A stretch of 64,000 nt of DNA from Luteimonas sp. ANT-B3E (GCA_001683895.1 LXQJ01000041.1:60149-124148), one strand, 5' to 3'; counted from the first letter of the stretch, positions 2,574-21,900 are shown. Notes: generated from the sequence alone by a model not told the origin. Program-made: numbers and translations.

Positions 2574-2675
2574 CTGCGGGCCGGTCGCCGACGAGGCGGA
2601 AGGGGCGCCAAGGTAACGTAGTTCGAGCACAAGGCGCGATGGCGCCGCGGCCGGCGGCGCTGGAGCCGGTCAACG

Positions 2676-3250
2676 TCTCTGTGTAGAGCGAGGGCGCTTC
2701 GGGTTCGATCCGCGAGGGAGGCCGGTGACGGGGTGCTGCTCTGCCCCTGCGGCCGGCCAAAAGTGGAGCCGGAGCCGGAGCCGGAGCCAGGGCCGGAGCC
2801 GGAGCCAGAGCCGGAGCCATAGCCAGGGCCGCTTCGGCTGGTTTCGCGAGGGAGGCCGGTGACGGGGAACTGCTCCGCCCCTCCGTCCGGCCATCCATGG
2901 CCGGAGTCGAGGCCGTGGGCCATCCATGGCCCACTCTCCGCAGCACCCCGCCACCCGCCTCCTGAACGATCGACTTGGCTTCGGAAGATCAAGCGGATTC
3001 GTTGGGACAGCAAGACGCCGCGTGCTTGGCCCAAAGAAAGCAGTGCATCTGTCGATGTCACCGCGCCGCGCCGGGGTGCGGGGGTGTCGCGTAAAGGGCA
3101 CATGGATGTGCCCGCCGGTGAGTTGGGCAGGATGCCCAACCGAACCGGTAGCGATACCCCCGCATCCCGGCACGATGGCCCGAAGCCCGGACGTTGCCGT
3201 GCTCTGCTGTGTCGTGCTCTGCCGTGCCGTGCCGTGCTCTGCTCGTCAGC
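2676..3250 (+). repeat. Dispersed intergenic repeat element, copy A
   Basis: Shares with 5175-5760 (same orientation) and 21370-21900 (inverted): GGAGGCCGGTGACGGGG, CGGCCATCCATGGCC, GGGCCATCCATGGCCC, CTCTCCGCAGCACCCC, CACATGGATGTG, GGTAGCGATACC. Has hexamer-like ends (GGAGCC)n. Confidence 0.85.
2764..2828 (+). repeat. GGAGCC-type hexanucleotide repeat tract within copy A
   Basis: tggagccggagccggagccggagccagggccggagccggagccagagccggagccatagcc. Confidence 0.9.
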
Positions 3251-3346
3251 GCTTCGGTGTGCAGCGCTGTGCGTCCAGCCAGGCCTGCGACTGCCAACCA
3301 CTGGAACCCACGCCGTTCGGTGCTCGACACCTGGCAAAACGTTGCC

Positions 3347-5053
3347 TCACGCGTCCTCGGTGACGCGCAGGACTTCCTCGATGGTGGTCATGCCGGCCAT
3401 CGCCTTGATGATCCCGTCCTCGTACATCGTGCGCATGCCGGCATCGCGCGCCAGCTGCTCGATCTCGCCCATGCCGGCGTGGCGCATCACCGCGCGGCGG
3501 AGCGCGTCGTTCATCACCAGGAACTCCATGATCGTGGTGCGCCCGAGGTAGCCGGTCGGCGCAAGCGGCGAACCCTTGGGCCGGTACAGGAAGATCTCGC
3601 CGTCCGGCTGGTACTTGCGCAGCGCGAACTTCTCGATCTCCTCGGGCGACGGCGCGTACTTCTCCGCGTGCGTCGGCTCCAGCCGGCGCACCAGCCGCTG
3701 CGCCAGGATGCCGTTGATGGTCGAGGTCAGCAGGTAGTCCTCGACGCCCATGTCCAGCATGCGGGTGATGCCGCCGGCGGCATTGTTGGTGTGCAGCGTC
3801 GACAGCACCAGGTGGCCGGTCAATGCGGACTGGATCGCGATCTTCGCGGTCTCCAGGTCCCGCATCTCGCCGATCATGATGATGTCCGGGTCCTGGCGCA
3901 CGATGCTGCGCAGGGCGTGCGAGAAGTCGAGCCCGATCTGCGGCTTGGCCTGGATCTGGTTGATGCCCTCGATCTGGTACTCGACCGGGTCCTCGACCGT
4001 GATGATCTTGACGTCGGCGGTGTTGAGCTTCGACAGCGCGGTGTACAGCGTGGTGGTCTTGCCCGAACCGGTGGGACCGGTAACCAGCAGGATGCCGTGC
4101 GGCTGCTTCAGCACCGCCTCGAACTGCGGCAGGAAGTTGTCGGTGAAGCCCAGCTTGTGGAAGTCGAACACCACGGTCTCGCGGTCGAGCAGTCGCATCA
4201 CCACCGACTCGCCGTGCGCGGTCGGTACCGTCGACACGCGCAGGTCCAGTTCCTTGCCCTGCACGCGCAGCATGATGCGGCCGTCCTGCGGCAGGCGGCG
4301 CTCGGCGATGTTGAGCTTGGCCATGATCTTGATGCGGCTGATGACCGCGGCGGTGAGGTTGGTGGGCGGGCTTTCGCCCTCCTCCAGCACACCGTCGATG
4401 CGGTAGCGCACCTTGAGCCGATTCTCGAACGGCTCGATATGGATGTCCGACGCACGCAGCTCGACCGCACGCTGGATGACAAGGTTCACCAGCCGGATGA
4501 CAGGAGCCTCCGACGCCAGATCGCGCAGGTGCTCGACATCGTCGAGGTCGCCGCTGCCGTCGCCGTCCGCGGATTCGACGATGGTGCCCATCGCGCTGCG
4601 GCCCTGGCCGTGCCAGCGCTCGATCAGGTCGGTGATCTCCGAGCGCAGCGCGACGCGCGCGCGCACCCGCTTGCCGGTGGCGAGCGCAACGGCGTCGCTC
4701 GCGTACGGGTCCTGCGGGTCGGCGAGCAGGACGTCGACAAATGTGTCGTCCTCGGCGACCGGCACCACGTGAAACTGCTTCATGAACTTCGCCGTCAGAG
4801 CGACGCCCTCGGGCGGCATCTCGGGCACGTCCTTGGCGCTGGCCAGCGGCAGGTCGAGCACTGCGGCCGCGGCGTCGGCGTGGTCGCGCTCCGACACCAG
4901 CCCCAGCCGCGACAGCAGCGACAGCAGGCTGCCGCCGGTCTCCTCCTGCAGCCGCCGCGCACGCGACAGGTCGACCTCCTTCAGCCGCCCCTTTGACAGC
5001 AGCGCGGAGACGATGCGCTCGTCGGCGGAAACCTCTGGATCGACAGGCTGCAC
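3347..5053 (-). CDS. gspE: Type II secretion ATPase GspE
   Basis: Walker A GPTGSGKTTTLY, GEMRDLETAKIAIQSALTGHLVLSTLHTNNA. The listed ORF extends to 5329, but that N-terminus translates repeat copy B; GTG at 5053 is a plausible start. Confidence 0.93.
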   Translation of the reverse strand: MQPVDPEVSADERIVSALLSKGRLKEVDLSRARRLQEETGGSLLSLLSRLGLVSERDHADAAAAVLDLPLASAKDVPEMPPEGVALTAKFMKQFHVVPVAEDDTFVDVLLADPQDPYASDAVALATGKRVRARVALRSEITDLIERWHGQGRSAMGTIVESADGDGSGDLDDVEHLRDLASEAPVIRLVNLVIQRAVELRASDIHIEPFENRLKVRYRIDGVLEEGESPPTNLTAAVISRIKIMAKLNIAERRLPQDGRIMLRVQGKELDLRVSTVPTAHGESVVMRLLDRETVVFDFHKLGFTDNFLPQFEAVLKQPHGILLVTGPTGSGKTTTLYTALSKLNTADVKIITVEDPVEYQIEGINQIQAKPQIGLDFSHALRSIVRQDPDIIMIGEMRDLETAKIAIQSALTGHLVLSTLHTNNAAGGITRMLDMGVEDYLLTSTINGILAQRLVRRLEPTHAEKYAPSPEEIEKFALRKYQPDGEIFLYRPKGSPLAPTGYLGRTTIMEFLVMNDALRRAVMRHAGMGEIEQLARDAGMRTMYEDGIIKAMAGMTTIEEVLRVTEDA

Positions 5054-5174
5054 TGCGGCGTTCAAGCGGCGCTCGACGGTTGGCGAAGGAGCCCGGACTT
5101 TAGCAGCAGCGCCCGACACCCCATCGCGGCCTCCCAACGCGCGAGCCGCGCTCCTGCTGCCGGCCTCGCGCTTC

Positions 5175-5760
5175 CGAGCTTCCGACGCCGACGCCGACGC
5201 CGAAGCCGAAGCCAAGGCAGCTTCAGCAGTTCGCGCGAGGGAGGCCGGTGACGGGTTGCTGCTCCGCCCCTCCGTCCGGCCATCCATGGCCGGAGTCGGG
5301 GCCGTGGGCCATCCCACTCTCCGCAGCACCCCATCACCCGCCTCCTGGATAATCGGCGTGGCTTCGGAGGATCAAGCGCGTTCGCCGCAACCAGAGTGCG
5401 ACGTTGCCCTTGGCCACAAAGAAAGCAGTGCCCCGGACGATGTCACCGCGCCGCGACGGGGTGCGGGGTGTCGCGTAAAGCGCACATGGATGTGCGCGCC
5501 GGTGAGCCGGCCATGGGTGAGCAAGGGCCGCTTGCGCGGCACGGCCGCGCGGCCCTTGCGAACGCCCGGCGCGCTGCGCCGGGCTGGACCGGCCGCGAAG
5601 CGGACGGGCCAATCGAACCGGGTAGCGATCCCCGGTATCCCGGCGCGATAGCCCGAAGCCCGGGCTCAGCTCTCGGCGCTAGGCTCGCGGCTCTGCTTTC
5701 GGCTTCTGGCTCCGTTCCTGCACCAGTACCAGTACCAGCGCCAGCGAGCTAGCGCAAGTG
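5175..5760 (+). repeat. Dispersed intergenic repeat element, copy B
   Basis: Same ordered motifs and orientation as copy A. Ends are GCCGAC/GCCGAA hexamers on the left and ACCAGT hexamers on the right. Carries an extra GC-rich insert at ~5520-5610. Confidence 0.85.
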
Positions 5761-5844
5761 CGCACGCTCCGGCGATGGCCCGCTCCAGCGCCGATCCAGA
5801 TGAGGCGACCTGCGCGTCGGCCGGAGTCCGGGCCTGCGGCAGCG

Positions 5845-8800
5845 CTACCCCAGCGCCACCCGCGCATTGCGGAACATGCGCAGCCACGGGGCGTCGTCGG
5901 GCCAGTCGGGGGGCGACCAGCTGAGGTTCGCACGGCGCTGGGTGCGCTCGGGGTGCGGCATCAGGATGGTCACGCGGCCGTCGTCACTGCACAGGCCGGC
6001 GACGGCATCCGCGGAGCCGTTGGGATTGTCGGGATAGGTCGTCGCCGGGGCGCCGTCGCCGGCGACGTAGCGCAGTGCCACGCGCGCGGCCGTCGCGTCG
6101 TCGGGCGAAGCGAACGTCGCGCGGCCCTCGCCGTGCGCGATCGCGACCGGGATGCGCGAGCCGGCCATGCCGGCCAGCAGCAGCGACGGCGAGTCGACGA
6201 CCTCGAGCAGTCCGTAGCGCGCCTCGAACTGCTCGCTGCGGTTGCGCGCGAAGCGCGGCCAGTGGCGGGTGCCGGGGATGATGTCGCCCAGCTGCGACAG
6301 CATCTGGCAACCGTTGCACACCCCCAGCGCCAGCGTGTCGCGGGCGAAGAAGTCCGCGAACTGTGCCCGCAGCGCAGCGCGCTCCAGGATCGACGTCGCC
6401 CAGCCGCGGCCGGCGCCGAGCACGTCGCCGTAACTGAAGCCGCCGCATGCCGCCAGCGCGGAAAAATCCTGCAGCCGGGTGCGGCCGGTGATCAGGTCGC
6501 TCATGTGCACGTCGACCGCGTCGAACCCGGCGCGGTCGAACGCATGCGCCATCTCGACCTGGCCGTTGACGCCCTGCTCGCGCAGGATCGCGACCCGCGG
6601 CCGCGCGCCGCGCGCGACGTACGGCGCGGCGACGTCGTTGGCGGGATCGAACGTGAGCTTCGGCTGCAGACCGGGCGCGTCGAAGCGGCGCGCGTGCGCG
6701 AACTCCTCGGCGGCGCAGTCGGGCGCATCGCGCAGTCGCTGCATCGCGTGGGTCACCGACCACCAGGCGTCGAACGCCTCCTGCCAGCGCCACTCCGCGA
6801 GCTGCGTGGCGCCGTCGACGACGCGGATCACCGCCGCGGTGGTCGGGCGCGCGATGCGCTGGGCGCAGTCGATCAATCCGTGCCGGGCGACGAGATCGGC
6901 GAACTCGACCCGGTCGTCGCAGGCGATCTGCACGACCGCGCCCAGCTCCTCGTTGAACAGCGTGCGGAACACGTCGTCGGCGCGGTCCTCGCCCCAGCCG
7001 GCGAGGTCGATGTCGAGGCCCACGTGCGAGCAGAACGCCATCTCGCAAAGTGCCGCGAACGCGCCGCCGTCGGAGCGGTCGTGGTACGCGCGCAGCAGCC
7101 CGGCCTGGCGCGCATCGCGCACCAGCTCGAACAGCCCGCGCAGCCGCTCCGGATCATCCAGGTCCGGGCAGGCGCCTCCGAAGCCGTCGTGACACTGCGC
7201 CAGGATCGACCCGCCCAGCCGCTGGCGCCCGCCGCCCAGGCCGATCAGCCAGATCTCGCTGTCCCCGTCGCAGTCGAGCTGCGGCGTCAGCTGCGCGCCG
7301 ACGTCGGCGACCGGCGCGAACGCCGTCACCACCAGCGACACCGGCGACACCGTCGCCTGCGCGGCGCCGTCGACCTGCCACTGCGTCTGCATCGAGAGCG
7401 AGTCCTTGCCGACCGGGATGCTCAGCTCGAGCGCCGGGCACAGCGCCATGCCGACCGCGCGCACCGCGTCGAACAGCCGCGCGTCCTCGCCCGGGTGGCC
7501 GGCGGCGGCCATCCAGTTGGCCGACAGCTTGACCTGCTCCAGTGCATCCACCGGCGCCGCGCACAGGTTGGTGATCGCCTCGCCTACCGCCATCCGCGCT
7601 GACGCCGCGGCGTCGATCAGCGCCAGTGGGGCGCGCTCGCCGATCGCCATCGCCTCGCCGCCGTCGGTGTCGAACCCGGCGAGCGTGATCGCGCAGTCGG
7701 CGACCGGCAGCTGCCACGGTCCGACCATCTGGTCGCGCGCGGTCAGCCCGCCGACGCTGCGGTCGCCGATGGTGACCAGGAAATTCTTGGCGGCCACCGT
7801 GGGGTGCGCCAGCACCCGCAGTCCGGCCTGGTGCAGGTCGATGCCGGCGACATTGAGCGCGGGCCAGCGCGCCGGGAGCAGCCGCACGACGTCGCGCAGC
7901 ATCCGCGGCACGCGCCCGAACAGCAGGTCCATCGGCAGGTCGATCGGAGGCGCGTCGGCGTCCTCCGGGGCGACCCCATCGCCTGTCGTGCGGATCGGCG
8001 CCGTCGCCGCAGGCGCCTGCGACGACGCGTCGACGGCCCTGAGGAGATCGACGCCATCGGCCGCGGTGCGCGGGTCCACAAGGCCGCCGCCGGCCAGCAC
8101 GCCGTGGCCGACCAGCAGGCGCTGCTCCGCCGTGGCGTGGCCGACGACCGCGAACGGGCAGCGCTCGCGCCGGCACAGCGCGGCCAGGGCCTCGATGCGC
8201 GCGGCCGGCACGCCCAGCACGTAACGCTCCTGGGCCTCGTTGCACCACAGCTGCATCGGCGACAGCGACGGATCGTCGCTGGGCACGCGGTCGAGGTCGA
8301 TGACGCCGCCGACGCCGGAGTCGTGCAGCAGCTCCGGGATCGCGTTGGACAGGCCACCGGCGCCGACGTCGTGGCACCACGCGATCGGGTTGTCGGCGCC
8401 GAGCGCCACGCAGCGGTCGACGACCTCCTGGCAGCGGCGCTCCATCTCCGGGTTGTCGCGCTGCACGCTGGCGAAGTCGAGGTCCTGCGCGCTGTCGCCG
8501 GACGCGACCGAGCTGGCGGCACCACCACCGAGCCCGATCAGCATCGCCGGGCCACCGAGCACGACCACGAGGTCGCCAGGAGCCAGCCGCACCTTGTCGA
8601 CCATCGCGCGGTCGATCGCGCCGAGGCCGCCGGCGAGCATGATCGGTTTGTCGAACCCGCGGACCAGCGTGGCACCGTCGCCGGTCGCTTCCGCCAGCTC
8701 GAAGCTGCGGAAGTAACCGGCCAGGTTGGGACGCCCGAACTCGTTGTTGAACGCAGCCGCGCCCAGCGGGCCGTCGAGCATGATCTCCAGCGCCGGCGCC

Positions 8801-9873
8801 ATCCGCGGACTCAGCGCGCGCGGCTGCTCCCACGGCTGCGGCAGCGTCGGGATCCGCAGGTGCGACACGCTGAAGCCGCACAGCCCGGCCTTGGGTTTGC
8901 CGCCGCGGCCGGTGGCGCCCTCGTCGCGGATCTCGCCGCCGGCACCGGTCGCCGCTCCCGCGAACGGCGAGATCGCGGTGGGATGGTTGTGGGTCTCGAC
9001 CTTGATGCAGAACGCGCTGTCGAGCAGCGGCCCGCTGCGATAGACGGCGGTGCCGGGATCGGGCCGGAAGCGCCGCGCCGGCGTGCCCGCGACCACGGCG
9101 GCATTGTCGCTGTAGGCGGACAGCGTGTGCGCAGGAGTGGTGGCGTGGGTATGGCGGATCATGCCGAACAGCGACTGCGGGCGGCCGTCGGCCACCATCT
9201 CCTGGCCGTCGATGCGCCAGCCGGCGTTGAAGATCTTGTGTCGGCAGTGCTCGGAGTTGGCCTGCGCGAACATCATCAGCTCGACGTCGGACGGCGCGCG
9301 CCCCAGGGCGTCGAAGCGCTCGCGCAGGTAGGCGATCTCGTCGTCGGCCAGTGCCAGCCCGAGGCGCCGGTTGGCCTGCGCCAGGTCGGCGGTGTGGATG
9401 CGCTCCAGCGCGCCGCGGGCCGGCATCGCGAACAGCGCGCCGGCGGCGTGATGGTCGTCGAGCAGCGACTGGGTCATCGGGTCATGCAGCGCGTCGTCCA
9501 GCGCCACCGCGGCCGCGGCCTCGGCGGGCCAGCCGGCGACATCGATGCGCATGCCGCGCTCGACCCGCCGCACCGGCAGCCCGGCGCCGCGCAGCAGGCC
9601 GGTGGTCTTGCTGGCCCAAGGCGAGATGGTGCCCAACCGCGGTGCGACCAGCCGCGTGCGTGCACCGTCGCTGGGCGTCCGCATGGCCGAAGCCTCGAGG
9701 ATCGCGGGGAGCCGCGCCAGCGGGCCGTTTGCCGCGCTGTCGGCATCGGCATCCACCCAGTAGACGTGCCATGTCCCGGTGATGCGCACGGCGTCGTGGA
9801 GGCGGCGCAGCCGCTGCTGCAGGCGTTCGCGCCGGAACGGCGACAGGGCCGGGAGGGCCTCGAGGACGATCAT
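5845..9873 (-). CDS. purL: Phosphoribosylformylglycinamidine synthase
   Basis: ~1340 aa; [57 protein letters not shown], and a C-terminal glutaminase domain with GVCNGCQML. Confidence 0.98.
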
Positions 9874-9943
9874 GTCCGGGGGGTGACCGTGGAACGGGCC
9901 CGCCATTGTAGCGAAGCGGGCGCACGGCCGGCTTCGCGGTGGC

Positions 9944-10798
9944 TCAGCGCGCGACCGTGGTCGCGGCCGCCTGCACGGCTTCCGCCGCCAGCTTGTCCAG
10001 CGCCGCGCGCAGCGCCTCGGGCGGCATGTAACCGGGCATCTGCTGGCCTTCGGCGGTGACGATCATCGGCGTGCCGGTCAACCCCACGCGCTGGCCGATG
10101 TCGTATTGCATCGCCACCGGGCTGGTGCAGGCGCGCGACTTGACGGTCTTGCCCTGCTTGGCCTCGGTCAGCGCCCGGCGGCGGTCGGGGGCGCACCACA
10201 CCGCCTCCATCTTGGCAAAGTCCTCGCTTGCCGGGCCCATGCGCGGGAAGGCGAGGTATTCGATGGCGATGCCCTGCCGGTTGTACTCGGCGATGTCCTC
10301 GTGCAGCTTGCGGCAGTAGCCGCACTCGACGTCGGTGAACACGGTTACCGTGTAGCGAGGGTCCACCGGCGCGAAGATGATGCGGTCCTTCTCCGGCACC
10401 TTCGCCAGCAGGTCGCGGCGGACCTCGGCCAGGCCGGCCTGGCTCAGGTCGCGCTTGGCGGCGACGTCGAACAGCGCGCCCTGCAGCAGGTAGCGGCCGT
10501 CGTCGGACACGTAGATCACCTGCCCGCCGACCACGACCTCGCGGAAGCCCGGCAGCGGCGCAGCGGCGATACGGTCGACCTGGACCTCGGCGTTGAGCGA
10601 GCGGATCGCGGCCATCGCACGCTCGTCCGGCGTGCCCGCGGTTGCGGCGTCGGCGATGGTCGACGGCGTGTCGCCGCCAGGCGTCGCCGGCGCCGGCGCC
10701 ATGGTGGGCGTCGCCGGGACCGCCGCATCGGGTGACGGCGCCTGGGCACAGGCGGACACGCTGGCGACGCAGAGCAGCAGGAGCAGGCAGGACTTCAT
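9944..10798 (-). CDS. dsbC: DsbC-family thiol:disulfide interchange protein (lipoprotein-like signal)
   Basis: Signal [19 protein letters not shown]; thioredoxin-fold [29 protein letters not shown]. Confidence 0.9.
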
Positions 10799-10910
10799 GC
10801 GGGGTCTCTGGCAGGCGGGCCGGATGACGCACGGCCGCAGGGGATACGCCGGATTCTCGCACGACTCGCCGGCCACCCCACCCCGTCGCCGGCACGCGTG
10901 GCGACCCGGT

Positions 10911-11867
10911 TCAGCCGCGCGGATGGTGCGCTGCGTGCAGGCGCTTGAGCTGCTCACGCGCCACGAGGGTGTAGATCTGGGTGGTCGACAGCGAGCTGTG
11001 TCCCAGCAGCATCTGCAGCGCGCGCAGGTCGGCGCCGTGGTTGAGCAGGTGGGTCGCAAAGCTGTGGCGGAGACCGTGCGGGCTGATGCGCTGGGACGCG
11101 ATGCCCGCGGTGGCCCCGTGGCGCTTGACCAGCAACCAGAAAGCCTGCCGCGTCCACGCCTCGCCGCGGGCGCCGGGGAACAGCGCCGCGACGGGGTGCC
11201 GCCCGGCCAGCGCCGGGCGCGCCTCGTCGAGGAACCGCTGCAGCCAGTGCTGCGCCTCCTCGCCCAGCGGCACCAGCCTCTCGCGGCCACCCTTGCCGGT
11301 GACCCGCAGCGCGCCCTGGCGCAGGTTGACCGCGGTCGCGGGCAGGTCGACCAGCTCGCTGACGCGCAGCCCGCAGCCGTACATCAGCTCCAGCATCGCG
11401 CGGTCGCGCAGCCCGGCGGGCGTTGCCACGTCGGGGGCCGCAAGCAGCGCCTCGATCTCCGATTCCGCCAGCGCCCTGGGCAATGCCCGCGACAGCCGCG
11501 GCGGGTCGAGCAGCGCGGTCGGGTCATCGGCGCGCGCGCGCTGGCGCACCAGCCGTCCGTAGAACGCGCGCAGCGTCGAGAGCAGCCGCGCGTTGCTGCG
11601 CGCCGCGTAGCCCGACCGGGTGCGGAAGGCGAGGTAGTCGAACAGGCCCGCACGGTCGGCATCGGCAAGCGCGCCCGCACCAGACGCGCGGCGCCAGCGT
11701 GCCAGCCCCTGCAGATCGCGCCGGTAGCCGTCCAGCGTCTGCCGCGCGGCGCCTGTCTCGGCCCACAGCGCATCGAGGAAGTGGTCGATCGCTGCCTGGT
11801 CGTCGTCGCCAGCCGGCGGCAGCGCCATCGCCTGCTCTCGGCGCCGTGCGGGGGTGGTCGGAGGCAT
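10911..11867 (-). CDS. xerD: Tyrosine recombinase XerD
   Basis: Catalytic motifs ELMYGCGLRVSELVDL, ISPHGLRHSFATHLLNHGADLRALQMLLGHSSLSTTQIYT. Confidence 0.95.
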   Translation of the reverse strand: MPPTTPARRREQAMALPPAGDDDQAAIDHFLDALWAETGAARQTLDGYRRDLQGLARWRRASGAGALADADRAGLFDYLAFRTRSGYAARSNARLLSTLRAFYGRLVRQRARADDPTALLDPPRLSRALPRALAESEIEALLAAPDVATPAGLRDRAMLELMYGCGLRVSELVDLPATAVNLRQGALRVTGKGGRERLVPLGEEAQHWLQRFLDEARPALAGRHPVAALFPGARGEAWTRQAFWLLVKRHGATAGIASQRISPHGLRHSFATHLLNHGADLRALQMLLGHSSLSTTQIYTLVAREQLKRLHAAHHPRG

Positions 11868-11912
11868 GCCCGGAGCTTAACGACGCGCGCCGGCGCTCGC
11901 TATGCTGCCGCG

Positions 11913-12425
11913 ATGCCCAATGCCATGCCGCCCGCCCCCGACGTCACCGCGCCCGCTGCGCCCGCTGCGCCGGCCGCGCTGGTCGGGCGCCGCCTGCTGG
12001 CGCTGTTCTACGACCTGTGGCCGGCGGCGGCGGTCTGGCTGCTGCTGGCGCTGCTGTTCACCGCGGGCTATACCCTTGCAGGGCATCCGCCGCGCGAGAA
12101 CATCGCCGCGCTCAGTCCGCTGCAGTGGCTGCTGTGGGGCCTGTGCTGGGTGGCCACGGGCTGGTACGCCACGCACAGCTGGGCGCGCGGCGGACAGACG
12201 CTCGGCATGCGGCCGTGGCGGCTGCGGGTACAGGGCGTTCAAGGACAGCCGCCACCCGACCGGCGACAGCTGTGGACCCGCTACGCGGTCGGCACGCTGT
12301 CGCTGCTCACCGGCGGGCTCGGCTTCTGGTGGGCGTGGATCGACCGCGAGCGCCTGGCATGGCACGACCGCGCCAGCGGTACCCGCCTGGTGCGGGTGCC
12401 CAAACCGACGTCGACACGCTCATGA
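11913..12425 (+). CDS. RDD family membrane protein
   Basis: LVGRRLLALFYDLWPAAAVW... RRQLWTRYAVGTLSLLTGGLGFWWAWIDRERLAWHDRASGTRLV. Confidence 0.88.
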   Translation: MPNAMPPAPDVTAPAAPAAPAALVGRRLLALFYDLWPAAAVWLLLALLFTAGYTLAGHPPRENIAALSPLQWLLWGLCWVATGWYATHSWARGGQTLGMRPWRLRVQGVQGQPPPDRRQLWTRYAVGTLSLLTGGLGFWWAWIDRERLAWHDRASGTRLVRVPKPTSTRS

Positions 12426-12438
12426 GCAGCGGCGCGCG

Positions 12439-13548
12439 TCAGCCGCTGCGCCGCCGGAACAGCAGCCACGACACCACCAGCATCACTGCCGGCGGAACCG
12501 CGTAGGCCAGCCGGTAGTCGAAGCCGTAGACCGCAGCCAGCTTGACGGCCTGGTTCTGCAGCAGCCAGAACCCGAGCGCGAACACGATGCCGATGAACAG
12601 CCGCCTGCCCAGACCGCCGCTGCGCAGCGAGCCGAAGGCGAACGGAATCGCGGCCAGGCACAGCGCCAGCACGTTGAGCGGGTAGAACCAGCGTCCCCAG
12701 TAGTACTCCTCGAACTCGCTGGCATCGAGGGCGTTGCGGCGCCGGTATTCGATGCCTTCTGCAAGCTGTGCACCCGACATGTAGCGCGGGCGCCAGAGGT
12801 TGCCGGCGTTGGCGGCCAGCGCCGCGGCGTCCAGCTGCGACTCCCAGCGCTCCTCCAGCACCTCGGCCTGGCTCACCGCGCGTTCCTCGAACCATGTCCG
12901 TCGCACGTTGCGAAGCAGCCAGCCGCTGGCGCGGTGCTCGGCGGTCGCGGCGTGCGCAATCGACTCCAGCCGCCCGTCGTCGGCGAACTCGAACAGGCGG
13001 ACGTCGCCGAGCTCCAGCCACGCGTCGTCGCCTTCGCTGCGCTCCTGGCCGGTCTGCGCGTTGAGGAAGATGTCGCCCTCGCGCGCCCAGAGGCCCGAGT
13101 ACTGCGCCACGATCATGTCGTCGGAGCGCGCCGATGACTTCATCGTATCGGCGGCGCGCTGCGCCACCGGCGCGACCGATTCGCCGACCACCATCATCAG
13201 GCCGGTGACCAGCAGCAGCGGCAACGCGACCGACAGGCTCAGGCGCCTGCGCGACACGCCCAGCGCACGCAGCGCGATCAGCTCCGAGGTCGCTGCCAGT
13301 TGCCCGAGGCCCATCAGCGCGCCGATCACCGCCGCGGTCGGGAACATGGTGTAGGCGCGCCGCGGCAGGGTGTAGCCGATGTAGGCGATGGCACTGCCGA
13401 CGCCATAGTTGCCGTCGCCGATGTCATCGATCTCGTTGACGCCGGCGAGCACCGCGTCCAGCCCGACCAACACCAGCCACACCATCGCCACGGTGATGCA
13501 GACCACGCGCGCGGCGTACAGGTCATGGATTCTGGGCAATCGCTTCAT
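12439..13548 (-). CDS. lptG: LPS export permease LptG
   Basis: MKRLPRIHDLYAARVVC... YjgP/YjgQ family features; overlaps lptF. Confidence 0.9.
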   Translation of the reverse strand: MKRLPRIHDLYAARVVCITVAMVWLVLVGLDAVLAGVNEIDDIGDGNYGVGSAIAYIGYTLPRRAYTMFPTAAVIGALMGLGQLAATSELIALRALGVSRRRLSLSVALPLLLVTGLMMVVGESVAPVAQRAADTMKSSARSDDMIVAQYSGLWAREGDIFLNAQTGQERSEGDDAWLELGDVRLFEFADDGRLESIAHAATAEHRASGWLLRNVRRTWFEERAVSQAEVLEERWESQLDAAALAANAGNLWRPRYMSGAQLAEGIEYRRRNALDASEFEEYYWGRWFYPLNVLALCLAAIPFAFGSLRSGGLGRRLFIGIVFALGFWLLQNQAVKLAAVYGFDYRLAYAVPPAVMLVVSWLLFRRRSG

Positions 13549-14636
13549 CGCGGCAGGGCCCGCCGCAGGCGCGGCGCGGCGACCTGGCCGTCGCGGAAGT
13601 ACATCCATGCCGACATCGCCAGCATCGGCAGCAGCAGCCACCAAAGGCCAAGGGCCGCCGGTAGCTTGCCGTCGGCAATCCACCTGCTGCCCATCAGCAT
13701 CAGGTTGATGCCCACGACATAGGCAAGGAAGCCCATCAGCATGCGGCCGTAGCGCGCCTGCCGTGGCGGGCTGCGCGCCAGTGGCACCGCCATCAGCGCG
13801 AACGCCAGCGCCAGCAGCGGCGGCGCGATGCGCGCGTGCAGCTGGGCCCGCGCCTCCGGCCGTCCGTCGCCCAGCAGCGCCCGCGTCGTTGCCAGTTCGG
13901 GGTCGTCATCCGCCACGCTGGTGTCGCCGTCCGGCAGCTGCAGCTCGTTGCTCTCGTAGCGCATCAGCCGGAAATCACGCCCGGCACCCATCGGCCCCTC
14001 GACCCGGAAACCGTCGTCCAGGGTCAGGAACCGCGCATCCCCGTCCACGCTCAGCGAGCCGCCCAGCGCGGTGGTCACGTCGAGGCGGTCGTCGGACTGC
14101 TGGTAGACAAACACACGTCCCAGGCGGGTGCCGTCGTTCGACATCGACCCCACGTAGACCACGCCGCCGCCGCCCGGCAGCTCGACGAAGCGCCCGGCTT
14201 CCAGCCCGGCGACCAGCAGGCTGCGATTGCCCTCGGCGATCATGCGCTGCGAGTACGCGTTCGCCCAGGGACCCAGCCACAGCGAGCACAGCGCGATCAG
14301 CGCCAGCACCGGCACCACCACCAGCATCACCGGGCGCAGCAGCCGCACCGGGCCGACACCGGTTGCCGTCAGCACCGGCATCTCGGAGTCGCGGTACAGG
14401 CGTCCCACGCCCAGCAGCAGCCCAAGCATCAGGCCGAGCGGCAGGATCAGCGGCAGGTAGTTCAGCACCTGCAGGCCGAGCTGGGACAGCATCATCCCCG
14501 CGGGAACGCGGCCGCGCGCGATGTCGCTGAGGACGTCGGCGAATACCCCGCCGAGGCTCACGATCATCAGCACCACCAGCGCCGCGAACGTCGCCTGGGC
14601 GAATTCGCGGGACAGGTAGGAGTCGAGCTTCGGCAT
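13545..14636 (-). CDS. lptF: LPS export permease LptF
   Basis: MPKLDSYLSREFAQATFAALVVLMIVSLGG...; YjgP/YjgQ family; adjacent to lptG and divergent from pepA, a common arrangement. Confidence 0.9.
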   Translation of the reverse strand: MPKLDSYLSREFAQATFAALVVLMIVSLGGVFADVLSDIARGRVPAGMMLSQLGLQVLNYLPLILPLGLMLGLLLGVGRLYRDSEMPVLTATGVGPVRLLRPVMLVVVPVLALIALCSLWLGPWANAYSQRMIAEGNRSLLVAGLEAGRFVELPGGGGVVYVGSMSNDGTRLGRVFVYQQSDDRLDVTTALGGSLSVDGDARFLTLDDGFRVEGPMGAGRDFRLMRYESNELQLPDGDTSVADDDPELATTRALLGDGRPEARAQLHARIAPPLLALAFALMAVPLARSPPRQARYGRMLMGFLAYVVGINLMLMGSRWIADGKLPAALGLWWLLLPMLAMSAWMYFRDGQVAAPRLRRALPR

Positions 14637-14784
14637 CCAGCGCCCTTGCTTTAGGATGGGAGGTCGTCCATGCCGCGCTGGCGCGGATGTCCGCGAGGCG
14701 GAAGTTGCCCGCCAACGGCGCCCTGCCGCCCAACCGGGCCGCGTGATTGTAAGCACCTGACCACGGAGCACACCAAGAAACGCC

Positions 14785-16269
14785 ATGACCCTCGAATTCA
14801 CACTGAACCAGCATGCCCCCGTTTCCGCCGACGTCGACTGCCTCGTGGTAGGCGTGTTCGCGAACCAGACCCTCACCGACGCTGCGCAGGCGGTGGACGG
14901 CGCCAGTGACGGCCGCCTCGGGGCGCTGGTCGAGCGCGGCGACGTGTCCTCCAAGACCGGGCGCACGACCCTGCTGCACGACGTCACCGGCGTGACCGCG
15001 CCACGGGTGCTGGTGGTCGGGCTGGGCGAGCAGGCCAAGTTCGGAGTGCCGCAGTACCTCAAGGCGGTGGGCGACGCCGCGCGCGCGCTGCGTACCGGTC
15101 CCTGCCGCTCGGCGCTGCTGACGCTGCCGCAGGTCGAGGTGACCGGCCGCGACGCCGCCTGGCGCATCCGCGAGGCGGTCGTCGCCACCAGCCACGCCTG
15201 CTATCGCTACCTCGCCACCCTGGGCGAGAAGAACAAGAAGCGGGAGGAGACCGGCCTCACCACGCTGGCGATCGCCGGCGCCGACGAAGCCGCGCTGGCG
15301 CAGGGCAGGGCGATCGCGGCGGGCGTGGCGTTCGCGCGCGAGCTCGGCCACCTGCCGCCCAATATCTGCAACCCGGCATACCTTGCGTCGCAGGCGCAGG
15401 ACTTCGCCGCGAAGTTCGACCGCGCCAGCTGCGAAGTGCTGGAGCGTGCCGACATGGAGGCGCTGGGCATGGGCTCGCTGCTGGCGGTCGCCCGCGCATC
15501 GGCCAACCCGCCCAAGCTCATAGTGCTGCAGTGGCGCAACGGCGGCGACGCCAGGCCCTACGTGCTGGTTGGCAAGGGCATTACCTTCGACACCGGGGGC
15601 ATCAACCTCAAGACGCAGGGCGGCGTCGAGGAGATGAAGTACGACATGTGCGGCGCCGCGGGCGTCATGGGCACCTTCGTGTCCGCGGTCGGGCTGCAGC
15701 TGCCGGTCAACCTGGTGGTGGTGGTGCCGGCGGTCGAGAACGCCATCGACGGCGACGCCTACCGCCCGTCCGACGTCCTCACCTCGATGTCGGGCACGAC
15801 CATCGAGGTCGGCAACACCGACGCCGAAGGCCGCCTGATCCTGTGCGATGCGCTGACCTACGCCCAGCGCTTCGAGCCGCAGGCGCTGGTCGACGTCGCC
15901 ACCCTCACCGGTGCGTGCATGGTCGCGCTGGGCCGCTACGCCAGCGGGCTGATGACCAAGCACGACGATCTCGGCGCCGAGCTGCTGGCTGCCGGCGAGC
16001 AGACCTTCGACCGCGCGTGGCGGCTGCCGCTGTGGGACGAGTACCAGGGAATGATCGATTCGACCTTCGCCGACGTCTACAACATCGGCGGGCGCTGGGC
16101 CGGCGCGATCACCGCGGGCTGCTTCCTGTCGCGGTTCACCGAGGGCCAGCGCTGGGCGCACATCGACATCGCCGGCTCCGCCAGCGGCGACGGCAAAAAC
16201 GGGCTGGCCACCGGCCGCCCGGTCGGGCTGCTGTCGCAGTGGCTGATGGACCGCGCCGCGGAGGCGTGA
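14785..16269 (+). CDS. pepA: Leucyl aminopeptidase
   Basis: M17 motifs [15 protein letters not shown] and [17 protein letters not shown]. Confidence 0.97.
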
Positions 16270-16292
16270 CCACAGCGACCGGCCAGACCGCG

Positions 16293-16715
16293 ATGCCGCG
16301 CGCCGATTTCTACCTGATCGCCAAGGAGCGGTTCCGCGAGGAGCCGCTGCGGCTGGTGTGCGAGCTCGTCCGCAAGGCCTTCGAGGCCGACCTGTGGACG
16401 CTGGTGCTGGCGCGCGACGAGGAGCAGGCCGAGGCGATCGACGGCCTGCTGTGGGACATGGGCGACGACGCCTACATCCCGCACCAGATGGCCGGCGACG
16501 AGGAGGACGACCTGTCGCCGGTGCTGATCGCCACGCCGGACATGGACGTGCCGCTGCGCGCGGTGGTGGTCAACCTGCGCGACGCGGTGGTGCCCGCGGG
16601 CTTCGACCGCGTGCTTGAGGTGGTGCCCGACGACGAGGCGGCGCGCGGTCCGCTGCGCGAGCGCTGGAAGCAGTACAAGGCGCGCGGGCTCGACGTTGCC
16701 AAGCACGACATGTAG
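16293..16715 (+). CDS. holC: DNA polymerase III subunit chi
   Basis: [56 protein letters not shown]; between pepA and valS. Confidence 0.92.
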
Positions 16716-16767
16716 CCGTCGCGGCGGCACCGCCGCCGCGGCCACCCGACACCTGCAGGCACCCACC

Positions 16768-19704
16768 ATGACCACCACCCTGTCCCCCGGCTACGACCCC
16801 ACCCAGTTCGAGGCGAGGCTGTACGCGCAGTGGGAGTCGAGCGGCGCGTTCGCGGCCACCGGCGACGGCCCCGCGTACAGCATCCTGCTGCCGCCGCCCA
16901 ACGTCACCGGCACCCTGCACATGGGGCACGCGTTCCAGCACACGCTGCAGGACGCGCTGGTGCGCTACCACCGCATGCGCGGCTTCCGCACGCTGTGGCA
17001 GATGGGCACCGACCACGCCGGCATCGCCACCGAGATGGTCGTGGCACGCAACCTCGCGCTCGAGGGCCAGGGCGAGACCCGCGACTCGCTGGGCCGCGAC
17101 GGCTTCATCGACCGCGTCTGGCGCTGGAAGGGCCACTCCGGCGACACCATCGAGCGCCAGATGCGCCGGCTGGGCACGTCCGGCGACTGGTCGCGCGCGA
17201 TGTTCACCATGGACCCGCTGGCGTCCGACGCGGTGGTCGAGGCCTTCGTGCGCCTGTACGAGCAGGGCCTGGTGTATCGCGGCAAGCGGCTGGTCAACTG
17301 GGACCCGGTGCTGGGCACCGCGATCTCCGACCTCGAGGTTGTCAACGCCGAGGAGGACGGGTCCCTATGGTCGATCGCCTATCCGCTCGCCGACGGCGCC
17401 GACTACGAGCACGTGGTGCACGACGCCGACGGCCGCGAGGTCTCGCGCGAGCGCCGCGACTACCTGGTGGTGGCGACCACGCGTCCGGAGACAATGCTCG
17501 GAGACACCGCAGTGATGGTGCATCCCGACGATGCGCGCTACGCGCACCTCGTCGGCCGCAGCGTGACCCTGCCGCTTACCGGCCGCACCATTCCGATCAT
17601 TGCGGATGCCTATGTCGATCGCGCGTTCGGCACCGGCGTGGTCAAGGTGACGCCGGCCCACGACTTCAACGATTACGCGGTCGGGCAGCGGCACGGGCTG
17701 CCGGTGATCAACATCCTGACGCCGGCCGCGAAAATTATTGATTCGAGCAGCTACAGGGTGCGTCGCGAGGGCGAGAACCCGCGCGACCCCATCCTCAGCC
17801 TCGAACGCGATGCACTGCCGTTCGACATCGGCATCCCGGAGAAGTACTGCGGCCTGGACCGCTACGACGCCCGTGCCGCGATCGTCGCCGACCTCGACGC
17901 GCTCGGCCTGCTGGTCGAGACCGCGCCGCACAAGCTGCAGGTACCGCGCGGGGACCGCACCGGACAGGCCATCGAGCCCTTCCTGACCGACCAGTGGTTC
18001 GTGAAGATGGACGCGCTGGCCGAGCGCGGCCTCGCGCGCTTCGAGGGCCGCGACGACGCGGCCGCGGACATCCGCTTCGTGCCGCCCAACTGGATCAACA
18101 CCTACCGCCACTGGATGCACAACATCCAGGACTGGTGCATCAGCCGCCAGCTCTGGTGGGGGCACCGCATCCCGGCGTGGTACGACGCGCAGGGCAACGC
18201 CCACGTCGGCCGCGACGAGGCCGATGCGCGCGCGCGCGCCGGCCTGTCCGACGACGTCGCGCTGACCCGGGACGCCGACGTGCTGGAGACCTGGTTCTCG
18301 TCGGGTATCTGGCCGATCAGCACGATGGGCTGGCCCGGCGCCGACGCCATGCGCGAGCGCGGCTTCGCGGACTTCGTGCCATCCAGCGTGTTGGTTACCG
18401 GCTTCGACATCATCTTCTTCTGGGTCGCGCGCATGGTCATGCTGACCGACGCGCTGACCGGGCAGGTGCCGTTCCGCGATGTCTACATCACCGGCCTGGT
18501 GCGCGACAAGGAAGGCCAAAAGATGTCGAAGTCGAAGGGCAACATCCTCGACCCGCTGGACATCATTGACGGCATCGACCTCGAGGCGCTGGTCTCCAAG
18601 CGCACCGCCGGGCTGATGAACCCGAAGGACGCGCACAAGATCGAACGCGCGACGCGCAAGGACTTCCCCGACGGCATCCCGGCGTTCGGCGCCGACGCGC
18701 TGCGCTTCACCATGGTCGCGCTCGCCGGTCCGGGCCGCGACATCAAGTTCGACCTCGGCCGCGCCGACGGCTACCGGAACTTCTGCAACAAGCTGTGGAA
18801 CGCCACCCGCTTCGTGCTGATGCACACCGAATCGCTACCCGTGCGCACGGAGGACGCGGCGATGCCCGCCACCGACGCCGAGCAGTGGATCCTGGCGCGG
18901 CTGGCGCGGGTGGAGGCGCAAGCGGCCGCGCACTTCGCCGGCTACCGCTTCGACCTGCTGGCGCAGGCGCTGTACGAGTTCGCGTGGAACGACTTCTGCG
19001 ACTGGTTCGTCGAGCTCGCCAAGCCGGCGCTGTCGGGCGACGACGCCACGGCCGCCGACAGCACGCGGCGCACGCTGCTGCGCGTCCTGGAGGCGCTGCT
19101 GCGTCTGCTGCACCCGTTGGTGCCGTTCGTCACCGAGGAGCTGTGGCAGCAAGTCGCGCCGCGGCTGGGCATCGCCGGCGACAGCATCAGCCTGCAGCCC
19201 TACCCGGCCGGGGACGGCGACGCCGCGGCGTACGCACGCGCCGAGGGCGGCGTCGAATGGCTGCGGCAGATGGTGTCCGCGCTGCGCCGCATCCGCAGCG
19301 AGCTCGGCGTGTCGCCGGCGCGGCCCGTCACGCTGCTGCTGCAGGGCGGCAGCGCGGACGACCACGCGCGCGCCGCGCGCTACGCGACGCAGCTGCGCTT
19401 CCTCAACCGGATCGAGCGCATCGACACGCTGGTCGGGGAGCCGCCGCCTGCCGCCGCCGCGCTGGTCGGCGACCTGCGGCTGTACGTGCCGCTCGAGGGC
19501 CTCGTCGACCTCGATGCCGAGCGCACGCGGCTGGACAAGGAGCTCAAGCGGGTCTCGGGCGAGCTGGCAAAGTCGCAGGGCAAGCTGGCCAGCGATACAT
19601 TCGTCAGTAACGCCCCGGAAGCGGTGGTGGTGCAGGAGCGCCAGCGCCTGGCCGACTGGACCGCGCAGCGCGACGCGCTGGCGGCGCAGCGGGCGCGGCT
19701 GTAA
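16768..19704 (+). CDS. valS: Valyl-tRNA synthetase
   Basis: [15 protein letters not shown] (HIGH), KMSKSKGN (KMSKS), class I aaRS length (978 aa), C-terminal coiled coil. Confidence 0.98.
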
Positions 19705-19722
19705 CGAGGCACCGCACAGGGC

Positions 19723-20226
19723 CTAGTCTTCCAGCAGCTCCAGCGCCATGACGATCGCGTCTTCGCGCCCCTGCCGCGCCGGGTAGTAGCGCGGGCGGCG
19801 CCCGATCTCGTTGAAGCCGGTGTCGTGGTACAGCGCGAGCGCCGCCGGGTTGGACGGCCGCGCCTCGAGGAACACGCGCGCGATGCGGTGCCCGCGCGCG
19901 ATGCCGAGAATCGCCTGCAGCAGGCGCCGGCCGTGGCCACGGCCCTGACACACGGGATCCACGCACAGGTTGAGCAGGTGGGCCTCGTCGACGGCGAGGC
20001 TCAGCACCGCGTAGCCGACGATGTGGCCGTCGTCGACCAGCAGCCACATGGGGTACTGCGCGCGTAGGCAGTCGCGGAAGATGCCGGGCGTCCACGGGAA
20101 CGGGTACGCGCGCAGTTCGACTTCCATCACCTCGGCCAGGTCGGCGTCGCGCATCGGTCGCAACGCCGGCACGGTTCGATGCGTCGAGGCGGCGTCGCGT
20201 GCAACGTCCCTTGCGCCGGCGCTCAC
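19723..20226 (-). CDS. rimI: Ribosomal protein S18-alanine N-acetyltransferase (GNAT)
   Basis: GNAT motif VDPVCQGRGHGRRLLQAILGIA and RPSNPAALALYHDTGFNEIGRRPRYY. Start uncertain (GTG 20226 or ATG 20154). Confidence 0.85.
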   Translation of the reverse strand: MSAGARDVARDAASTHRTVPALRPMRDADLAEVMEVELRAYPFPWTPGIFRDCLRAQYPMWLLVDDGHIVGYAVLSLAVDEAHLLNLCVDPVCQGRGHGRRLLQAILGIARGHRIARVFLEARPSNPAALALYHDTGFNEIGRRPRYYPARQGREDAIVMALELLED

Positions 20227-20489
20227 GGCCGCCCGGTGCCGACGCGCAGCGCGCGCAGTCGCGGCCACAGCGCGCGCTTGGCCCCGGGGTCGCCTCGCAG
20301 CCGCGCCGTCGCCGGCCACGCCTCGACCAGCGCGTGCGCATCGGGATCGTCCGGGCGTCGTGCGGCTGCCCGCAGCAGGGCATGCAGCAGCGGATCATCG
20401 GGCAGGCGCGGGCGCTCCGGGCCGCTGTGCCGCAGCAGCTGATGGCCAAGCGCTTCCAGCACCTCGCGCTGGAACGGATCCCAGTTCAC
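20223..20489 (-). CDS. Small hypothetical protein between pssA and rimI
   Basis: GTG at 20489 (VNWDPFQREVLEALGHQLLRHSGPERPRLPDDPLLHALLRAAARRP...); overlaps neighbouring starts and stops on both sides. Confidence 0.6.
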   Translation of the reverse strand: MNWDPFQREVLEALGHQLLRHSGPERPRLPDDPLLHALLRAAARRPDDPDAHALVEAWPATARLRGDPGAKRALWPRLRALRVGTGRP

Positions 20490-21259
20490 GCCCCGGCCGC
20501 GCCCGGTCGCTGGCGCCGGCGCCACGCCCACTGCACCGGACCCGACAGCGCATACGCCACCGACACCGCCAGCAGCGTCTTGGGTGGATCGATCCAGAGC
20601 GCAATCAGCGCCGCGACCGCGATCAGCAGCGCCACGAACGGCACCCGGTCCGATCCCGGTCCGCTGCGGCTGCCCTTGAAGCTGCTGTAGCGGATACGGC
20701 TGACCATGAGCAGGCCACTGACGATGGTGATCGCCAGCGCCAGGTAGCGCAGCGGCGCGCCGCCGAGGTCGAGGGTGTGCAGCGTCCACACCGAACTCGC
20801 CATCAGTCCGGCCGCGGCCGGACTCGCCAGACCGATGAACCAGCGCTTGTCGACCTGCCCGACCTGGCTGTTGAACCGCGCCAGCCGCAGCGCGGCGCAC
20901 GCGGCATACAGGAACGCCGCCAGCCAGCCGACCTTGCCCAGCGTGCTGCCGTCCACGCGCATCGCCACCAGCGACCAGTGGTACATCACCAGCGCCGGCG
21001 CCATGCCAAAGCTCACCAGGTCGGCCAGCGAGTCGTACTGCACGCCGAACTCGGTCTGCGTATTGGTCAGCCGCGCGACCCTTCCGTCGAGCCCGTCGAG
21101 GACGCCGGCGACGAAGATCGCCATGCACGCCGCCTCGAACCGGCCCTGCGAGGCAGCAATGATCGCGAAGAAGCCGCCGAACAGCCCCGCCGTGGTCAGC
21201 AGGTTGGGCAGCAGGTAGATGCCGCGTGCGCGCCGCGGCGGAAGCCCGTTGTCGTCCAT
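20486..21259 (-). CDS. pssA: CDP-diacylglycerol--serine O-phosphatidyltransferase
   Basis: CDP-alcohol phosphotransferase motif DGLDGRVARLTNTQTEFGVQYDSLADLVSFGMAPA. Confidence 0.95.
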   Translation of the reverse strand: MDDNGLPPRRARGIYLLPNLLTTAGLFGGFFAIIAASQGRFEAACMAIFVAGVLDGLDGRVARLTNTQTEFGVQYDSLADLVSFGMAPALVMYHWSLVAMRVDGSTLGKVGWLAAFLYAACAALRLARFNSQVGQVDKRWFIGLASPAAAGLMASSVWTLHTLDLGGAPLRYLALAITIVSGLLMVSRIRYSSFKGSRSGPGSDRVPFVALLIAVAALIALWIDPPKTLLAVSVAYALSGPVQWAWRRRQRPGAAGA

Positions 21260-21369
21260 GGCGGCAGTGTATCCGCTCGCCCCTGCGCGCCACCGACTCG
21301 GCCTCCAGGGGGACGGATCTACGGCAACCCGTGGTGCACGCGTCGTCTTGAAAGAAGCGTGTGCTGCCG

Positions 21370-21900
21370 CCGAAGCCACGAGCAGTCGAGGCACGGAGCC
21401 GCAGCCGCAGCGAAAGCCGGAGTCAGGGCCAGAGGCAGGTCCAAGTCCAGATCCAGAGGCAGAGCCCAGGCTTCGGGCCATCGCGCCGCGGTCCGGGGGT
21501 ATCGCTACCCGGTTCGTTCGGCCATCCATGGCCGACTCACCGGCGGACACATCCATGTGCCCTTTACGCGGCACCCCCGCACCCGGCGCGGCGCGGTGGG
21601 TGCATCAGGTGCAGCGCACCTTGTGGGCAAGCGCGTCCACTCGCCCGGCAACACCAAGGAACCTGCTCGCCTCACCGAAGCCAAGCCAATCGTCTAGGAG
21701 GTCGGCGATGGGGTGCTGCGGAGAGTGGGCCATGGATGGCCCGCGCCCGCGACTCGGGCCATGGATGGCCCGACGGAGAGGCGGAGCAGCACCCCGTCGC
21801 CGGCCTCCCTCGCAAAACCCGCCGAAGCGCTCTGGCTCCGGATTCGGCTCTGGGCAAACAGTGCGGCGGAGCGGCACCCCGTCACCTGTCTTCGTTGCGA
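21370..21900 (-). repeat. Dispersed intergenic repeat element, copy C (inverted relative to A and B)
   Basis: Reverse complement carries the same ordered motifs; also has a nested second partial end unit (rc CGAAGACAGGTGACGGGGTGCCGCTCC) after a hexamer-like tract. Confidence 0.85.

Follow-up and report, generated by a model that had tools for sequence, protein, structure and literature searches.

The global regulator CsrA/RsmA governs metabolism, motility, secretion and virulence. How active it is depends on the number of GGA-loop sites that compete for it; the consensus site is a loop of the A(N)GGA type. Small RNAs of the CsrB/RsmX/Y/Z type sequester CsrA through hairpin loops of the form CANGGANG or CAGGANG. 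Rfam catalogues an RNA, RF01731, TwoAYGGAY (clan CL00106, which also holds RsmW), in which an outer stem surrounds two hairpins with AYGGAY loops. When first described, TwoAYGGAY was considered a probable RNA whose function was not known (PMC2864571), and it was proposed in 2014 by Gardner and Eldai to bind CsrA, on motif grounds (PMC4333381).

We analysed a window of 64,000 nucleotides from Luteimonas sp. ANT-B3E, within which a conserved, multi-copy and inserted repeat of approximately 0.4 kb occurs, as it does elsewhere in this genome and in relatives. The repeat carries the loops of the sequestering RNAs, in a genome that encodes csrA, but its putative sites are distributed two per module over many loci rather than gathered in one sRNA, and no stand-alone promoter or terminator is seen in it. 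It has the outer stem, two hairpins and loops of RF01731, but its modules are paired back to back, number dozens per genome and are inserted in a mobile-like manner, for which we found no counterpart among descriptions of RF01731 in the literature searched. Like MITEs, it is short, lacks an ORF, inserts at an empty site and has near-symmetrical ends, whereas its conserved part is RNA-like and we found neither a transposase nor a fixed target or target duplication. With REP/BIME sequences moved by RAYT it shares an intergenic, palindromic and multi-copy character with alternating orientation, but it has no RAYT link and is a larger unit with a long, variable outer stem. Integron attC sites are also folded single-strand sites, and the modules of a few genomes flank a small gene; the repeat, however, is dispersed rather than arrayed, and visual inspection of its consensus showed no GTTRRRY/RYYYAAC core.

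Results

Copies of the repeat in the window and the genome

The initial annotation had reported three copies of an intergenic repeat, and these are present where it placed them, two in direct orientation (~2840-3200 and ~5230-5670) and one inverted (~21455-21820), aligning across ~360 bp with long invariant blocks. It had described them as a block of ~0.5 kb; the shared blocks are real, but what is conserved is two related modules in inverted order, not a single unstructured block. Each window copy comprises two divergent modules of ~105 nt with ~105-115 nt between them, and, as originally stated, the structured family has no ORF of its own. The features are as follows (R1 and R2 are RNA covariance models, R2 having been built without any sequence from this genome).

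2574..3345, no strand: copy 1, whole insertion between the gspE stop codon and the gspF start codon, by comparison with relatives L286-L291
2711..2742, plus: partial extra copy of the module A left arm, upstream of copy 1; BLAST match to query 8-55, 88%
2765..2831, no strand: hexamer array (GGAGCC/GAGCCA)n in the left flank of copy 1; TRF, ~9-11 units
2856..2963, minus: copy 1 module A, read leftwards; two CAUGGAUG loops; R1 90.2 bits, E 3e-17; R2 88.9 bits, E 5e-15
3067..3168, plus: copy 1 module B, read rightwards; loops CAUGGAUG and CAGGAUG; R1 94.1 bits, R2 77.5 bits
3195..3242, no strand: short-period array (TGCCG / TGCTCTGCCG) in the right flank of copy 1; TRF
5182..5213, no strand: hexamer array (CCGACG)n in the left flank of copy 2; TRF
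5245..5346, minus: copy 2 module A, one of its two loops lacking 6 bp in the alignment; R1 70.1 bits
5445..5655, plus: copy 2 module B, with the long variant of its second hairpin, GGGTGAGC...GCGAACGCC...GGACCGG...GGGCC; R1 30.6 bits over 5462-5542, arms and insert read from the sequence
21488..21590, minus: copy 3 module B, read leftwards; two CAUGGAUG loops; R1 87.8 bits, R2 70.7 bits
21591..21695, no strand: copy 3 spacer between the divergent modules, its minus strand including GGCTTCGG; spacers are less conserved than any other part of the family
21696..21803, plus: copy 3 module A, read rightwards; two CAUGGAUG loops; R1 93.8 bits, R2 92.9 bits; RF01731 core 25.0 bits, below cut-off

Many copies per genome had been anticipated, and with copy 3 as a BLAST query 61 pieces were found at E<=0.001, spread through the draft genome of 2.81 Mb; several are full length, at 74-83% identity to copy 3, and some lie at contig ends. 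Model R2 recovers the modules of all three window copies, five at E values of 1e-11 to 9e-16 and the right module of copy 2 at 9e-4. Across the genome, 39 modules are found at E<0.1. Modules occur in 38 of 119 sampled family genomes, representing 18 of 54 genera, individual genomes carrying up to at least 33. Where two modules lie within 1 kb of each other their order is divergent in 30 of 32 pairs, counted by hand; single-module and tandem copies also occur. The exact double-hairpin pattern was present in only 2 of 369 genomes in a wide sample of the class, and is therefore rare in its strict form outside this family; scattered distant matches include unrelated repeats and coding sequence. 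Plasmid and phage collections returned no match to copy 1. Seven viral contigs contain the double-hairpin pattern.

Module structure

In each module a long outer stem encloses two hairpins. The arms of module A are GGAGGC..GGGGTGCTGC and GCAGCACCCC..GCCTCC, around two hairpins with CCATCCATGG; those of module B are GCGCCGGGGTGCGGGGGTGTCGC and GCGATACCCCCGCATCCCGGCGC, around two hairpins with CATGGATG or CAGGATG, and a poorly conserved spacer separates the two. On the strand that has GG in its loops, A and B are the same type of unit pointing apart, A leftwards and B rightwards. The second hairpin is longer in some copies (GGGTGAGC...GCGAACGCC...GGACCGG), a form that both modules can take and that recurs in other species.

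The single strand has a folding energy far below that of shuffled sequences (z of -7.3 and -5.7). Among 53 modules from this genome and relatives, 95.1% of cells are paired across 33 base pairs, compared with 69.1% when shuffled and 35-44% when slid, and both sides have changed in 29 of the 33, indicating compensatory evolution; across the genus the outer stem retains almost no conserved sequence while its pairing is kept. Under symmetrical scoring, G.U exceeds A.C on the loop-GG strand by 46:15 within this genome and by 60:13 among relatives in the genus, counts which, like the cells, are not independent since the copies are related; outside the genus the excess is not significant (63:45, p=0.10). 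Sequence comparison thus points to a loop-GG strand that acts as RNA or as single-stranded DNA. The surplus of G.U over A.C makes RNA the likelier constrained form, although a selected single-stranded DNA hairpin could likewise favour G.T over A.C.

Loops of the CsrA/RsmA type

On the strand read away from the partner module, the loops are CAUGGAUG or CAGGAUG, and they fit the patterns CANGGANG and CAGGANG. A-N(0-1)-GGA is kept in 90 of 94 and 84 of 94 loops across 94 modules found by covariance model, a set that is less biased, if not bias-free, than our first, for which the collection pattern required the loop and so made its invariance partly one of construction. Variation falls on the N and on the base that follows GGA (T, C, A, G), and the second loop is often shorter by one base (CAGGANG). 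In copies found by BLAST in this genome, conservation is 0.947 in the loop, ~0.90 in the rest of the module and 0.69 in the spacer. The modules therefore have A(N)GGA in hairpin loops that are conserved while the stems vary, with the collection bias just described attached to the loop count. The genome encodes csrA (PF02599, 2.5e-25), as do all 11 of the other genomes checked. A scan of the copies found no sigma-70 promoter or intrinsic terminator.

Relationship to RF01731

The repeat had not been recognised as a named family, a statement that needs qualification. Rfam gave nothing at gathering thresholds on the window, where the best score on RF01731 is 25.0 bits (copy 3 module A) against a cut-off of 43 bits; B modules of genus relatives, by comparison, score 52.5-53.1 bits over the full model (L043, L044 and L048), and a Marinobacter locus (L082) passes the cut-off over the full model at 52.8. 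Model R2 in turn finds the RF01731-positive loci L082, L064, L084 and L108, and the window modules have two AYGGAY hairpin loops inside an outer stem. To judge from these scores and this architecture, the window repeat is related to RF01731 while falling short of membership at the curated threshold. A literature search for the motif gave only incidental matches, by title.

On copy 3, the models for sX7 (22.7 bits) and RsmW (16.6 bits) scored far below their cut-offs and were rejected; the weak match to the Xanthomonas sRNA sX7 covers 21724-21819 on the minus strand, against a cut-off of 55, and the sX7 model likewise has a hairpin at its end, whose loop is ACGGAC. Luteimonas and Lysobacter contain a further repeat, TTTTCCGACTCGCCATCCATGGCTCGGTCGGAAAA and then a GGCGGCCATCCATGGCCGCC hairpin, that shares the loop type of the window copies (L050, L083, L093, L128). 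Gammaproteobacterial MAGs contain a different repeat with a double CCATCCATGG hairpin (GCACCGCCATCCATGGCTCCTTGCGAAATAC..TCCATCCATGGACATAAA; L053, L055, L102, L103, L117 and similar). Two loci of one Marinobacter segnicrescens genome, L073 and L082, have the same core and outer arms that differ yet stay complementary.

Insertion and genomic neighbourhood

In six relatives from the genus (L286-L291) a 2-bp gap lies between the type II secretion genes gspE and gspF, and the equivalents of window positions 2573 and 3346/3347 are adjacent. In this genome an insertion of 772 bp (2574-3345), which contains copy 1, parts the two genes and leaves both intact. Comparison of the occupied and empty sites shows that the element was gained at this position; the copies are intergenic, as first reported, but the setting of copy 1, inside the gspE-gspF junction, is not a neutral one. 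No target-site duplication is visible at this, the one resolved junction. Tandem arrays with units of 5-7 nt lie beside 7 of 22 copies, compared with two in 50.6 kb of flank. The purL-gspE gap that holds copy 2 in this genome reads in one relative (G037; L286 3177-3899) like a different small secreted-protein ORF.

This clean insertion, together with the inversion of the modules at both ends in nearly all close pairs, suits the main rival to an RNA-level function, a MITE-like element acting as DNA, in which the modules would be terminal inverted repeats, the hairpins would be recognised as DNA by a transposase and the resemblance to CsrA sites would be incidental. Small genes that resemble cargo keep this rival alive. 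In a Lysobacter-type genome (G499) an HI1420-type antitoxin and an HNH nuclease lie between modules, and G550 also has one or more small genes there. Within divergent module pairs such genes were located at L246 1169-1693, L247 1145-1719 and L248 1144-2048, and comprise the antitoxin, with no obvious toxin inside the module pair, the nuclease and a hypothetical protein that matches nothing in Pfam; each of the three is oriented leftwards, into the left module, and is possibly cargo. Large, ordinary-looking genes between modules in L269 and L270 were taken as chance neighbours and rejected as cargo. A purely DNA-level element would not, however, readily account for a G.U excess that is specific to one strand, for loop variation exactly at the N positions of the CsrA consensus or for kinship with a curated RNA family; single-module and tandem copies imply that two ends are not always needed, and, as the initial annotation had noted for the window, no transposase-like gene recurs beside the copies. 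Indeed no gene of any kind does, the largest cluster being the element itself read as spurious ORFs. We regard the DNA-level reading as possible, if somewhat doubtful.

A REP/BIME family moved by RAYT, a Y1 tyrosine transposase, would share the short palindromic units, alternating orientation, intergenic position and high copy number, and one Y1_Tnp gene is present in the genome. Yet the full hairpin motif (CCATCCATGG) is within 1.5 kb of none of 30 Y1_Tnp loci (the only one in this genome and 29 in the genus), five of which have merely single 8-bp half-motifs nearby. Y1_Tnp is missing from the element-carrying genomes G008, G009, G011, G018 and G025, of which G011, G018 and G025 are element-rich, and modules of ~105 nt with a long outer stem contrast with REPs of 20-40 bp. 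A RAYT origin is accordingly very improbable, and we rejected it, having found copies flanking no RAYT gene among the 30 loci. At locus L049 a Y1 transposase (RAYT-like) gene stands alone; its reading frame is unusually long, and no hairpin motif surrounds it. Of the earlier suggestion of a REP/MITE-like or structured-RNA family, the structured family stands and MITE-like fits the behaviour, while a REP in the strict, RAYT-linked sense does not.

Copies could instead act in cis, as UTR elements and not as decoys, affecting the RNA stability of the adjacent gene, anti-termination or control by RsmA. Module A of copy 2 is in sense upstream of gspE, and both modules of copy 3 are in sense upstream of divergent ORFs, which speaks for this reading; but there are also copies antisense to gene ends, and the neighbours have no common function. 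An exclusively cis-acting role seems to us unlikely, if less so than a RAYT origin.

Discussion

The explanation that we favour, with confidence that is about even, is a non-autonomous mobile repeat with two divergent RNA modules of the CsrA-binding type, read through from neighbouring genes and serving as RsmA decoys or UTR elements. The structure, the copy number and one clean insertion are observed directly. We infer that the element, being short, non-autonomous and dispersed, spreads and inserts between genes by transposition. When transcribed, a module would fold such that its long outer stem presents two A(N)GGA loops, at a spacing that would suit one CsrA/RsmA dimer holding both. Because no promoter is seen in the copies, we propose that transcripts arise by read-through from neighbouring genes; these would bind RsmA and act as dispersed decoys or, where a module lies in a UTR, as local RsmA-responsive elements.

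More tentatively, and with a probability scarcely above that of the DNA-level alternative, the divergent pair of CsrA-binding RNAs may be the payload of a mobile family, whose transposition would multiply decoys and rewire RsmA control genome by genome, perhaps with small cargo genes between the modules, such as the antitoxin and the nuclease, in some genomes. If the favoured explanation is correct, some 75 putative sites are distributed around the 2.8 Mb genome and copy number would be a tuning knob for a global regulator. It would also provide a biological setting for RF01731, an uncharacterised Rfam family, and would mean that an apparent REP/MITE repeat can be an RNA-level element.
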